A stretch of 64,000 nucleotides of DNA from Glycomyces sp. TRM65418. Lineage in GTDB: Bacteria > Actinomycetota > Actinomycetes > Mycobacteriales > Micromonosporaceae. The position numbers and the translations under genes are program-made. Location: positions 682,001 to 746,000 of the forward strand of contig NZ_JAJFAX010000001.1 in the NCBI RefSeq assembly GCF_019710475.1, read 5' to 3'. Within the stretch, counting starts at the first letter, position 1. Each line of letters opens with the position of its first letter. Positions 2,746-40,788 of this stretch are shown one piece after another. Below the pieces are notes generated by a model. The model was not told where the DNA came from and did no database searches. It saw only the letters and a list, made by a program, of their open reading frames with translations.

Positions 2746-3858
2746 CTAGAAGCCGTCTTTGAGGAAGGCGGGGACGTCGACGTCGTCGAAGAGGACCTTG
2801 CCGCCGCCCGTCTCGCGCTCGGGTTCGGGCTTGGCCTCGCGGACCGGCTCGGGCCGCTGCTCGGGCAGGGCCGAGATCCGGGTCGGCTGCGCCAGCTCGA
2901 AGTCGGCGGTGTCCTCGGTGTCGAACCCGGCGGCGATCACGGTCACGCGGGCCTCTTCGCCGAGGGCGTCGTCGATGACCGCGCCGAAGATGATGTTCGC
3001 GTCGGTGTGCGCGCAGTCGGAGACGAGCTCGGCCGCGTCGTTGATCTCGAACAGGCCGAGGTCCGAACCGCCGGCGATGGACAGGAGCACGCCGCGCGCG
3101 CCCTCCATGCTCTGCTCCAGCAGGGGCGACTCGATCGCGGCGCGGGCCGCCTCGACGGCGCGGTTCTCGCCGCGGGCCGAGCCGATGCCCATGAGCGCCG
3201 AACCCGCTCCGCTCATGACGCTCTTGACGTCCGCGAAGTCGAGGTTGATGAGGCCCGGCGTGGTGATCAGGTCGGTTATGCCCTGGACACCGGAGAGCAG
3301 CACCTGGTCGGCGAGGCGGAAGGCGTCCATCATGGAGATGGAGCGGTCGCCGAGGTGGAGGAGCCGGTCGTTCGGGATGACGATCAGCGTGTCGCACTCG
3401 TTGCGCAGATCCTCTATTCCCGACACGGCCTGGGTCTGGCGGCGCTTGCCCTCGAAGGCGAACGGCCGGGTGACCACGCCGATCGTGAGCGCGCCGAGCT
3501 TGCGGGCGATGTTCGCGATGACGGGCGCGCCGCCGGTGCCGGTGCCGCCCCCTTCACCGCAGGTCACGAACACCATGTCCGCTCCCTTGAGGACTTCCTC
3601 GATCTCGTCGCGGTGGTCCTCGCACGCCTTGGCGCCGACCTCGGGGTTGGCCCCCGCGCCGAGACCGCGCGTCAGTTCGCGGCCGACGTCGAGCTTGACG
3701 TCGGCGTCGCTCATGAGGAGCGCCTGGGCGTCGGTGTTGATGGCGATGAACTCGACGCCCTTGAGCCCCGCCTCGATCATCCGGTTGACAGCATTGACCC
3801 CGCCGCCTCCGACTCCAACGACTTTGATGACGGCGAGGTAGTTGTGCGGTGGTGTCAT
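2746..3858 (-). CDS. ftsZ: cell division GTPase FtsZ
   Basis: Tubulin-like GTPase that forms the Z-ring. With the ATG at 3858 it is 370 aa and begins [15 protein letters not shown], the usual actinobacterial N-terminus; GGAAGGAAGG lies just upstream. The frame stays open to a TTG at 3900, but that start is less likely. Seen: GGGTGTG tubulin signature (residues 103-109), PNDRLL, synergy (T7) loop NLDFAD (205-210) for GTP hydrolysis in the adjacent subunit, and the conserved C-terminal tail [10 protein letters not shown] that binds SepF or other partners. Transcribed after ftsQ with a 77-base gap. Confidence 0.98.
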
Positions 3859-38029: not shown

Positions 38030-38347
38030 TCACTCCCTGAGGGAGCGCAGCGGCGGGAGATCGTCCCAGTCGCGACGCAGGCGGACGGCGCGGTCGTCGA
38101 TCTCGAAGTCGCCCCAGGGGACGTACCGGGTGTGGCGGTGGAGCATCTCGATGATCCGGCGCATCAGCGCCGGGCCCTCTTCCTCGCGGTGCTCGTAGCC
38201 GAACATCCGCCAGTGGTGGCGCCCGATCACCAGGCCGTCGACCACGAGATCGCCGTCGTCGCCGCCGGCGCGCAGGTCGATGACGTAACTGCAGCGCGTG
38301 CCGTCGGTGTCGAGGACGGGTGCGCCGATGAGTTCACTCGCTCGCAT
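38030..38347 (-). CDS. small PRC-barrel-like protein
   Basis: A 105-residue soluble protein. MRASELIGAPVLDTDGTRCSYVIDLRA resembles the beginning of PRC-barrel domains, and DLVVDGLVIGRHHW continues the beta-barrel pattern. The second half (EEGPALMRRIIEMLHRHTRYVPWGDFEIDD) is helical then returns to a strand. It overlaps the preceding PRC-like gene by 14 bases, so it belongs to the NRAMP transporter operon, likely as an accessory subunit (inference). Confidence 0.75.
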   Translation of the reverse strand: MRASELIGAPVLDTDGTRCSYVIDLRAGGDDGDLVVDGLVIGRHHWRMFGYEHREEEGPALMRRIIEMLHRHTRYVPWGDFEIDDRAVRLRRDWDDLPPLRSLRE

Positions 38348-38729
38348 GGTCCGCCCCCGGGATTCTGCCGATGATCTTGCGCTTGAGGCGCTCCTCGGAC
38401 GGGCTCGCGGCCGCCGCCGCGGCCGCCGCGGTGATCGAGACGACCGTGTCGACCTTGGTGATCGCCTCGATCGGAATGCGCCGCGGGTCGTCGGGACCGC
38501 CGGTGAGCCTCGCCGAGGCGCGGATGAGTGTGAGCGCCCATCGCGGGAGCCGCGGTTCGAGGGCGACGGTGCCGGTCAGGAGCGCGACGACCTCCGTCCG
38601 GCCGTCGTCGCGGCTTCGGAGCTCGAGGTCGTCGACGCGGCCGAGCGGCACGCCCTCCGGGTCGACGATCTCGCGGTCGATGATGTCCGTGAGCAGGTCG
38701 ACGATCTCGCGTCCTTGCCAGGTGCTCAT
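38334..38729 (-). CDS. PRC-barrel-like accessory protein
   Basis: A 131-residue protein. IVDPEGVPLGRVDDLELR with VALLTGTVAL suggests a PRC barrel; ITKVDTVVSITAAAAAAAASPSEERLKRKI includes a run of eight alanines and an amphipathic tail. ATG at 38729 overlaps the transporter stop (ATGA). PRC-barrel proteins adjoin NRAMP or MgtE transporters in many actinobacteria. Confidence 0.75.
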   Translation of the reverse strand: MSTWQGREIVDLLTDIIDREIVDPEGVPLGRVDDLELRSRDDGRTEVVALLTGTVALEPRLPRWALTLIRASARLTGGPDDPRRIPIEAITKVDTVVSITAAAAAAAASPSEERLKRKIIGRIPGADHASE

Positions 38730-39955
38730 GCGCCCATCCTCGTCAGGATCATCAGCGGGATCGCCGCGATCGCGGCGATGAAGACCACGGCCAGCACTGC
38801 GAGGCCGAGGCCGTTGCTCAGGCGGCCGTTGACGTGCTCGCCGACGTAGTCGGGGTCGTTGGCGGCGATGAGCACCGGGAGGTAGGTGAGCGGCAGCGCG
38901 ACCGCGGAGAACACGAGCGAGACCTCGGTGACCATGATGGGGTCGATGCCGGTCTGGACGATGAGGACGCCCACGAGCAGGCACAGCGCCACGGTGGCGT
39001 GGAAGCGGGCGCCGCGCGCGGGGGCGACGCGTTTGCCCCAGGGCCAGCCGAAGTACTGCGCGAGCGCGTAGCCGCAGGACAGGCCGCATTCGAGGGCGGC
39101 GCCGACCGTGGCGGCGAAGAAGCCGAAGAGGGCCACCGCCAGACCCGCGGTGCCGAATGCGAGCGCCGCCGGCTCGACGACCTGGTCGAGGGTCTTGACG
39201 TCGACGCCGCGTGGGAGCAGCACGACGGCGGCCGCCGCGGCGATGGCGATCGAGAGCAGGCCGCCGAGCGGGAAGCCGAGGAAGACGTTGATGCGCTGGG
39301 TCGACATGTCGGAGGGCTTCCAGCCCTCCTCGACGCCGCCGGAGCTGAAGAAGAACACCTCGTACGGGGTCATGGCGGCCGCGAAGAGGACGACCGCGTA
39401 GAACAGGTAGGTCGGGACCGCCTCGCCCGGGGGCGGGGAGAGGCTCACGGCCTGGCGGCCGAGGTCGCCCCAGTCGGGATCGAGCCACCACAGCGCGACG
39501 GCGAACACGGCGATGGTGAGGCCCGCGAGGCCGAAGGCCCGCTCCATGCTGTCGAACTTGACGCGCCAGACGATCAGCCACAGGGCGATGCCGATGGGCG
39601 CCACGTAGACGACGTGCGGAATGGTGGTCGCGATCTGGATGACGAGCGCGATGCCGCCGATCTGGGCGGTGAGGGTCAGGAGCGTGACGGCGAACGAGGC
39701 GATGAGGTTGACCAGCGCCGCGCCGGGACCGACCTTGTCGCGGATGAGGCTGTAGACGGGCGACCCGGAGACGGCGACGACGCGTCCGGACATCTCGGCG
39801 AAGACGCAGATGCCGATCACCCCGACGACCACCGCCCACACGAGCGCCAGGCCGTACCGTGCGCCCACAGTCGCGTTCGAGACGATGTCGCCGATGTCGA
39901 CGAAGCCCCCGATCGCGCTGAAGACGCCGAGAGTGAAGATCAGCAGCTTCCGCAC
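38726..39955 (-). CDS. atypical NRAMP-family divalent metal transporter
   Basis: A 409-residue membrane protein with about 11 helices. In NRAMP transporters helix 1 has DPGN and helix 6 MPH, which bind the metal. Here helix 1 reads DIGD (residues 20-23), keeping the aspartate, and helix 6 reads TPY in AAAMTPYEVFFFSSGG, so the Met that favours transition metals is Thr196 and the His is Tyr. Mg2+ or Ca2+-like specificity is plausible but unproven. GTG start. Confidence 0.88.
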   Translation of the reverse strand: MRKLLIFTLGVFSAIGGFVDIGDIVSNATVGARYGLALVWAVVVGVIGICVFAEMSGRVVAVSGSPVYSLIRDKVGPGAALVNLIASFAVTLLTLTAQIGGIALVIQIATTIPHVVYVAPIGIALWLIVWRVKFDSMERAFGLAGLTIAVFAVALWWLDPDWGDLGRQAVSLSPPPGEAVPTYLFYAVVLFAAAMTPYEVFFFSSGGVEEGWKPSDMSTQRINVFLGFPLGGLLSIAIAAAAAVVLLPRGVDVKTLDQVVEPAALAFGTAGLAVALFGFFAATVGAALECGLSCGYALAQYFGWPWGKRVAPARGARFHATVALCLLVGVLIVQTGIDPIMVTEVSLVFSAVALPLTYLPVLIAANDPDYVGEHVNGRLSNGLGLAVLAVVFIAAIAAIPLMILTRMGA

Positions 39956-40122
39956 CCGGAAAACGGTACCCGACGGACGTGACCGTCAAACTAGGGCAAT
40001 CGGCACTGTTCTTTCAGTGGCGAGAAGGACTGGCAATCGCTTTCAGACCTCGCCCGGGGGCCGGGAGAGGCAGGGGCGGTCGAGGCCGGGCCTGCTGATA
40101 CGCCGCTCGCCGCGGACGGGAT

Positions 40123-40788
40123 TCAGGCGCGCGGGCTCCCCGGTTCGCCGAAGTCGAACCACTCGGAGGCGCTGAGGCGGAAGACCTCGGGTGCGAGGTC
40201 CGCGGCCCGGTCGGGGATCCAGCCGAGACGCTCGCCGGGGAGGTCCCGCATGTTCTCGAACTCGGCCAGGCCGGGCTCGGCCGGCCATGCGCCGACCAGG
40301 ACCGCGGCATCGATGCCGCGTCGCGAGAGGGCTTCGAGTGTCAGGGCGGTGTGGTTCAGGGTGCCGAGTGCGGCGCGGGCGACCACGACCGCCGGGGCGC
40401 CGAGTTCCACGGCGAGGTCGCGGGCGGTCCAGCCGCCCTCGCCGAGCTGGACGAGGAGGCCGCCGGCGCCTTCCAGGAGGACGACTTCGGCCTTGGCGGC
40501 GAGGACGGTGTCGGCGACGTCGTGGAGCTTGAGCAGCGGCAGACCGCTGCGGCGAGCGGCGGTGTAGGGCGCCAAGGGATCGGGGTAGGAGGCGAGGGCG
40601 CGGGCGGGCGCGCCGGAGAGGCGGGTGACCTCGGCTGCGTCGTCGTCGTCGCCGGTCTGGGCGATCTTGATGACCTCGACGCTGCGACCCAGGCGCTGGA
40701 GGGCGGCCGCGAGTGCGGCGGTGGCGACGGTCTTGCCGACCCCGGTGTCCGTGCCGGTGACGAGGACCGGGCCTTCGAAGGTGATCAC
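40123..40788 (-). CDS. bioD: dethiobiotin synthetase BioD
   Basis: Forms dethiobiotin from DAPA, CO2 and ATP. P-loop GTDTGVGKT at residues 12-20; IKIAQTG takes the place of KPVQTG, keeping the lysine; EGAGGLLVQ is the second conserved block. Length 221 aa, GTG start. It ends the bio operon, 9 bases after a small doubtful ORF downstream of bioF. Confidence 0.94.
   Translation of the reverse strand: MITFEGPVLVTGTDTGVGKTVATAALAAALQRLGRSVEVIKIAQTGDDDDAAEVTRLSGAPARALASYPDPLAPYTAARRSGLPLLKLHDVADTVLAAKAEVVLLEGAGGLLVQLGEGGWTARDLAVELGAPAVVVARAALGTLNHTALTLEALSRRGIDAAVLVGAWPAEPGLAEFENMRDLPGERLGWIPDRAADLAPEVFRLSASEWFDFGEPGSPRA

Follow-up and report, generated by a model that had tools for sequence, protein, structure and literature searches.

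A conserved clade of NRAMP-fold carriers encoded with a pair of PRC-barrel proteins and usually with a lipoprotein

INTRODUCTION

To our knowledge, SLC11/NRAMP carriers have so far been treated as stand-alone proteins. In the available part of one publication, classical NRAMPs are assigned the site signature DxxN-A/CxxM, NRMTs the signature DxxG-TxxA/T, and NRATs the signature DxxN-AxxT, and EleNRMT is described as moving Mg and Mn, not Ca, without protons (PMC8806188). Shin et al. (2014) reported that a neighbor of NrmT is homologous to the N-terminal domain of MgtE, the term PRC being absent from the accessible portion of that text; according to the same portion, the NrmT of A. capsulatum rescued a Mn defect fully and a Mg defect only weakly (PMC4072509). 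We take this to mean that kinship to NRMTs alone does not fix the substrate. Most Nramp-related groups are uncharacterized, as stated in the accessible section of a preprint (PMC12873925).

In this study, we closely examined a locus in the genome of Glycomyces sp. TRM65418 and its relatives, starting from a sequence-only reading of a stretch of 64,000 nucleotides (here named the window; contig NZ_JAJFAX010000001.1, positions 682,001 to 746,000).

RESULTS

Genes and ion site at the locus

The sequence-only reading had proposed an NRAMP-like gene overlapped in series by two PRC-like genes, its product bearing the motifs DIGD (helix 1) and TPY (helix 6). Coordinates, motifs, and overlaps were confirmed, the overlaps being 4 bp (ATGA) between nramp and PRC1 and 14 bp between PRC1 and PRC2. 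The locus comprises the following features.

38726..39955, minus strand: gene for the NRAMP-fold (PF01566) carrier, 409 aa, GTG start
38334..38729, minus strand: PRC1 gene, 131 aa, ATGA overlap with nramp
38030..38347, minus strand: PRC2 gene, 105 aa, 14-bp overlap with PRC1
39887..39898, minus strand: codons of the helix 1 site D20-I-G-D23 (canonical DPGN)
39362..39370, minus strand: helix 6 site T196-P-Y (canonical MPH)
39089..39091, minus strand: E289, an acid of the TM8 region, clade-specific and present in both subclades
39956..40122, minus strand: 167-bp gap 5' of nramp, lacking the lipoprotein gene of relatives
40123-40788: bioD-like gene, the upstream neighbor of nramp

The 409-aa protein matches the Pfam Nramp model at 1.7e-42 (146.2 bits versus a cut-off of 29.8). 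Against the Pfam PRC family (PF05239; cut-off, 21.2 bits), PRC2 scored slightly too low (4.8e-4, 20.5 bits) and PRC1 reached 14.2 bits (0.045). Judged from the window alone, the designation PRC-like was hence reasonable, if unproven for PRC1; it gained support from profiles and from the fold of a homolog. For a fused PRC-PRC homolog (L095), two PRC barrels were predicted (pLDDT 86), and the leading PDB matches of the model are PRC-barrel proteins, the best being the CdpB1-CdpB2 heterodimer (8qzo, 8onw; E value of 1.4e-6).

The only other PF01566 protein of the same genome (L002; C34:251629-255747) has GSGE in helix 1, and its gene is flanked by a DeoR-like regulator gene and a D-2-hydroxyacid-dehydrogenase-like gene. 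This protein is perhaps not a metal carrier.

The carrier belongs to a conserved but patchily distributed clade

A scan of named genomes yielded 89 relatives, 80 of which were kept (L018-L097); the nearest, from Prauserella rugosa, shows 76% identity. In the alignment, D20 is present in all 86 scored actinobacterial rows and D23 in 84 of them, while T196 was found in 82 of 85 rows and Y198 in 85/85. The earlier claim of an altered ion site devoid of the Met and His holds: none of the canonical Asn, Met, and His is retained, and the residues in their place are conserved. Two further acids, E289 (84/87 rows) and E344 (83/87), are mostly missing from the seven non-family NRAMPs of the alignment. 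Position 98 in TM3 is a Glu in 79 of 86 rows and a Gln in the window copy, which would make proton coupling through this position unlikely. Actinobacterial departures from the common site include DISN/IPY (L009/L096) and DMGS/TPY (L109), and PRC neighbors accompany both forms.

A family NRAMP scoring at least 150 bits occurs in 8 of 61 related genomes, truncated in one of them (G025), and matches of at least 230 bits were obtained in 15 of 396 genomes drawn evenly across the phylum. The distribution of the clade is patchy and the operon scarce.

PRC genes accompany the carrier

A PRC1 homolog lies downstream on the same strand in 78/78 named-genome loci with sufficient downstream sequence. This count comprises 77 loci found by search and one (L081) by reading the open reading frame, and it leaves out two of the 80 fetched loci (L020 and L084), whose sequences end within 83 and 2 bases of the nramp stop; in Gordonia effusa (L067), PRC1 is 3.3 kb away from nramp. 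PRC2 was detected in 69 of the 80 loci by single-sequence search. Among the 11 loci lacking a match, three are cut by contig ends and in seven the open reading frame continues past PRC1; in L086, no PRC2 was seen. PRC1 and PRC2 form one fused gene in at least 47 of the 80 loci.

Across the 61 related genomes, strong matches (E<1e-12) of PRC1 and PRC2 coincide with the eight NRAMP-bearing genomes, PRC2 in G007 and G020 being the exceptions. Left uncounted were weak matches of PRC2 (E value of 1e-5 to 8e-4) in eight genomes, including G053, and of PRC1 (2e-6 to 4e-5) in G007, in G020, and at a second site in G043. In G007 (L171, about 3216-3780), the P450/NUDIX/bioD setting resembles that of the window, and an internal deletion has left a scar in which NRAMP residues 1-33 are joined to the tail of PRC1, with PRC2 intact. 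G020 was also considered as a deletion scar and rejected, as its contig ends there. The NRAMP-PRC arrangement is not due to chance.

The truncated NRAMP of G025 (L010; L172, 5369-5761 in minus-strand reading) is cut to its C-terminal third, with both PRC genes kept, and adjoins gas-vesicle-like genes (GvpK- and GvpF-like by eye).

A lipoprotein gene usually precedes the carrier gene

In most loci, nramp is preceded by a small gene whose product of 130 to 165 aa carries a signal peptide and a lipobox and is helical by its look; in annotated plasmid records, this gene ends four bases inside the nramp start. The lipobox Cys is invariant in 25/25 aligned lipoproteins, and the Labedaea copy, outside this alignment, has a membrane anchor without a lipobox. 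Neither of the two lipoproteins tested belongs to a Pfam family. Its consensus contains no conserved His or Met, which makes a metal-binding role doubtful.

In a profile search, 101 of 106 family loci proved to have the gene upstream, a count that includes some genomes twice and is not independent, as 53 of these loci had supplied the seed sequences of the profile. The weakest matches were those of L111 (0.006) and L048 (3e-4). The five misses are the genome of the window, counted twice (L003, L104), G024, also twice (L008, L106), and L110, where the gene is broken. Seven of eight further plasmid records have the lipoprotein as well. Within the related genomes, a strong match was obtained in five of the eight that bear the NRAMP and was missing in G000, G024, and G025. 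A search through the whole genome of the window detected the lipoprotein nowhere, bioD sitting 167 bp 5' of nramp instead, and none was found beside 40 non-family NRAMPs of the phylum. The claim of an obligate gene set stands, but not its description as a three-gene set, the usual set being four genes with the lipoprotein gene upstream.

The copy in the window, which lacks the lipoprotein, may be impaired. Relaxed selection on it was considered but is not claimed: across 120 conserved columns it shows 8 departures (median, 1), and intact lipoprotein-bearing relatives have similar numbers (nine in L005, seven in L018). A conserved wider neighborhood was likewise not established, since clustering of flanking open reading frames was blurred by shadow frames of the high-GC DNA; an upstream cluster of 70 loci turned out to be the real lipoprotein gene.

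An orphan lipoprotein gene in G001 (L213, 1825-2256) adjoins a multicopper-oxidase-like gene; neither an NRAMP nor a PRC gene accompanies it.

Members outside the Actinomycetota

The order lipoprotein-NRAMP-PRC1-PRC2 also occurs on plasmids of Rhizobium, Mesorhizobium, Caballeronia, and Chroococcidiopsis. In these non-actinobacterial rows, the near-universal Asp at position 20 is replaced by Glu (10/10 rows covering the position), one of N, E, S, and Q occupies position 23, and helix 6 reads SPY, SPF, SPT, or APF. E54 and E98 are kept in all of these rows, and E289 in every row covering it. Because the PRC2 matches are weak in these records (E value of about 1e-1 to 4e-6), the second gene was assigned in part from its location and from a single PRC annotation.

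Across the whole clade, position 20 is thus D or E, a carboxylate throughout; position 23 is D, N, S, A, E, or Q; and E54, E289, and in most cases E98 are retained from phylum to phylum. DIGD/TPY was therefore rejected as a defining feature, as basal actinobacterial and non-actinobacterial members differ in these residues and have the same operon; it is the actinobacterial form of the site only. By the criterion that the sequence-only reading had set itself, a tight link between this motif and the PRC genes did not survive a survey of co-occurrence either, because PRC genes also accompany DISN/IPY, DMGS/TPY, and ExGx/SPY members as well as NRMT-type carriers. In contrast, the link between the clade and the PRC genes did.

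Two plasmid copies are broken (L205, L212): that of Paraburkholderia sabiae has a frameshifted nramp and PRC1, and no lipoprotein gene was found at its locus; in Chroococcidiopsis, nramp is split by about 1.35 kb. The operon, being scarce and decaying (G007, G025, P. sabiae), is dispensable.

Among the plasmid neighbors in L197, L199, and L206 are ferritin-like, DUF3618, holin-family, and low-affinity iron permease genes.

The clade groups with NRMTs, which share the PRC tandem

The best PDB sequence match of the carrier is EleNRMT (7qia; 2.8e-18), and the best MntH reached 1.3e-8. The structural model predicts a full carrier fold, again closest to 7qia (TM score of 0.88), with the NRAT 8ont at 0.72. 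A careful tree of 44 proteins united the actinobacterial members with the proteobacterial ones in a single clade (100/100) that groups with NRMTs opposite MntH and IGPG-type proteins (97/92; root not inferred), and the MntH rows form a separate clade (100/100). The clade does not nest inside the NRMT clade but is separate from it (100/100). A quick tree of 66 proteins gave the same grouping, with a support of only 27 for the NRMT link. The NCBIfam models for MntH (44 of 430 bits) and Nramp (39.7 of 50) stayed below cut-off. That the protein is a noncanonical NRAMP, as first proposed, was upheld, and its nearest characterized relative, EleNRMT, moves Mg2+ and Mn2+.

We also fetched 40 regions around less related NRAMPs of the phylum, 30 of which are NRMT type by helix motif. 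A PRC-PRC tandem adjoins the carrier in 29 of these 30, the remaining locus (L140) having only an accessory fragment. The tandem takes the form of the head of a long accessory protein, of a stand-alone protein of ~200 aa, or of both, most often being part of a PRC-PRC-MgtE_N-CBS protein. It was found in 0/4 IGPG/MGPG-type, 2/4 DDPA-type, and 0/2 other loci (L161, L164), and in 0/6 MntH loci searched within 1.5-kb flanks. By Pfam, two NRMT accessories consist of PRC, MgtE_N, and CBS domains, and a third (L142) adds a subthreshold MgtE membrane domain; a near-identical ortholog of EleNRMT (777 bits) also has a PRC-PRC-headed accessory. In profile comparisons, the PRC1 family matched the second PRC of the accessory with 98.1% probability, and the PRC2 family matched the first half of the stand-alone tandem (95.6) and the accessory (95.8, best stretch in the second PRC). 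A swapped order of the PRCs relative to the accessory is possible, judging from these profiles. Conversely, with a profile of the PRC-PRC partners of NRMTs as the query, 63 of the 80 named family loci gave PRC matches (E<=1e-3).

In three NRMT-type loci (L142, L151, L153), a long PRC-PRC accessory upstream is combined with a stand-alone PRC-PRC protein downstream; the accessory of L142 has 626 aa, with the MgtE membrane domain being weak.

Control by an M-box or another riboswitch was considered and rejected: Rfam searches gave no match in the window, and in the 13 loci searched out of the 80 from named genomes, the sole match was a tRNA.

DISCUSSION

The clade is real, conserved, and undescribed in the literature searched, and it is wider than the sequence-only reading had recognized. 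Our literature search returned no description of an NRAMP with a PRC barrel, of a PRC barrel with MgtE, or of a PRC barrel with a divalent-metal transporter, and for Nramp, lipoprotein, and PRC domain only unrelated work was among the matches listed.

With slightly better than even confidence, we favor the reading that these proteins carry a hard divalent cation, foremost Mg2+, without proton coupling, together with an obligate PRC pair in the cytosol and, in most species, a lipoprotein on the outside. The data show the genes, their conservation and homology, the predicted folds, and the tree, from which substrate, direction, gating, and complex formation are inferred. The set in the window would then be a reduced copy of a multisubunit system in a clade beside NRMT. 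The NRAMP-fold protein would carry its cation inward (Mg2+ first, Mn2+ or Ca2+ next) without proton coupling, and the ligands may be the TM1 carboxylate or carboxylates, the TM6 hydroxyl, and probably Glu289; E289 and E344 would lie near the ion, judging from the alignment. A hard cation is indicated by DxxD-AxxT, which offers no soft ligand and more carboxylates. The PRC barrels are predicted to pair as a heterodimer in the cytosol, where they would dock on the inner face of the carrier and gate or tether it, as a counterpart of the NRMT PRC-PRC head bearing the Mg2+-sensing MgtE_N-CBS module. Since the pair is shared with NRMTs and here lacks the sensor module, it is best read as a docking and gating subunit. 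The helical lipoprotein may cap the outer face, or act as a donor, in most species and is absent in the genome of the window. Against this reading speak the deviation from the NRMT signature, the low support for the NRMT link in the quick tree, the lack of an M-box in the loci searched and of the MgtE_N-CBS sensor, the weak rescue of the Mg defect by the NrmT of A. capsulatum, the varying site, the dispensable operon, and the missing lipoprotein of the window copy.

Other readings have to be weighed against this one. One is a canonical Mn/Fe importer of the MntH type whose site has drifted, the PRC genes being passengers. The Pfam Nramp match and the lack of a second NRAMP close to MntH in the genome agree with it, but drift does not fit the conserved replacement of all three canonical residues, nor do passengers fit the presence of PRC1 in every testable locus; with the separate MntH clade and the low NCBIfam scores added, we regard this explanation as very improbable. 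The protein is not a canonical Mn/Fe MntH, as judged from its sequence. The dedicated partners on both membrane sides, the contrast within the clade between a variable ion site and a constant operon, the loss of any sensor domain, and the stress-type genes among the plasmid neighbors would rather suit a nontransporting NRAMP-fold envelope receptor or scaffold that joins the outer lipoprotein to the cytosolic PRC pair, for instance in stress signaling. However, a mere scaffold would not need the TM1 carboxylate, E54, E98 (mostly), and E289, which are kept across phyla, and the model shows a full carrier fold; we consider such a role unlikely.

Somewhat less likely again is a carrier of another substrate, be it a trivalent cation, a monovalent cation, or an organic solute. 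A trivalent cation is suggested by AxxT, which the clade has in common with the NRAT motif DxxN-AxxT as given in the part of the text available (PMC8806188), and the extra conserved acids could suit a higher charge; moreover, PF01566 includes groups without the cation signature, such as the IGPG type. Yet sequence, fold, and tree place the protein closest to a Mg/Mn carrier and not to NRAT or the IGPG type.

More broadly, we give an even chance to a four-subunit NRAMP-type machine across Actinomycetota, Pseudomonadota, and Cyanobacteriota, made up of an outer lipoprotein, an NRAMP-fold carrier with a rebuilt multicarboxylate site, and a cytosolic PRC heterodimer. Docking would then be the ancestral role of the PRC tandem throughout the NRMT side of the superfamily, and either the Mg2+-sensing MgtE_N-CBS module or the outer lipoprotein would be a later addition to it. 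Throughout an entire NRAMP clade, the carrier genes come with genes for dedicated partners that are predicted to sit on the two membrane faces, and the inner PRC partner unites the clade with Mg2+ transporters whose accessory had been described only as an MgtE-like fragment. The clade offers a natural PRC docking part without a sensor and thereby a direct test of the role of the NrmT accessory, and its natural site variants at positions 20 and 23, all on one scaffold, are useful for the open question of what makes the NRAMP fold select transition metals or alkaline-earth metals.

Compared with known systems, the clade shares superfamily and fold with MntH and canonical NRAMPs but lacks DPGN...MPH and lies outside the MntH clade. 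From plant NRAT, an Al3+ carrier with DxxN-AxxT, it differs by DxxD-AxxT, with the AxxT part in common. Two unlike PRC barrels side by side are also found in CdpB1-CdpB2 of Archaeoglobus, which are archaeal cell-division proteins and have no transporter. The accessory of NrmT (Shin et al., 2014) begins with a PRC-PRC tandem (Pfam PRC 4.6e-12 in L123) that is homologous to PRC1/PRC2, whereas the clade has the PRC part only, as two genes or one fused gene 3' of the carrier, with the PRC1-like domain in the leading place even though its counterpart in the accessory is the second PRC. Relative to NRMT/NrmT carriers (EleNRMT 7qia; C. acetobutylicum Ca_c0685), the clade has the site DxxD-AxxT instead of DxxG-TxxA/T, the NRMT signature in the accessible part of PMC8806188, has no MgtE_N-CBS gene and no M-box found, and adds a lipoprotein partner. 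Membership in NRMT proper is not claimed, as the motif differs and the MgtE_N partner is missing, but the mode of action may nevertheless be NRMT-like. Both groups are alike in fold, in the TM1 Asp, and in the loss of the canonical Met and His; E54 is common to many of them, and in both a homologous PRC tandem is encoded next door to the carrier.
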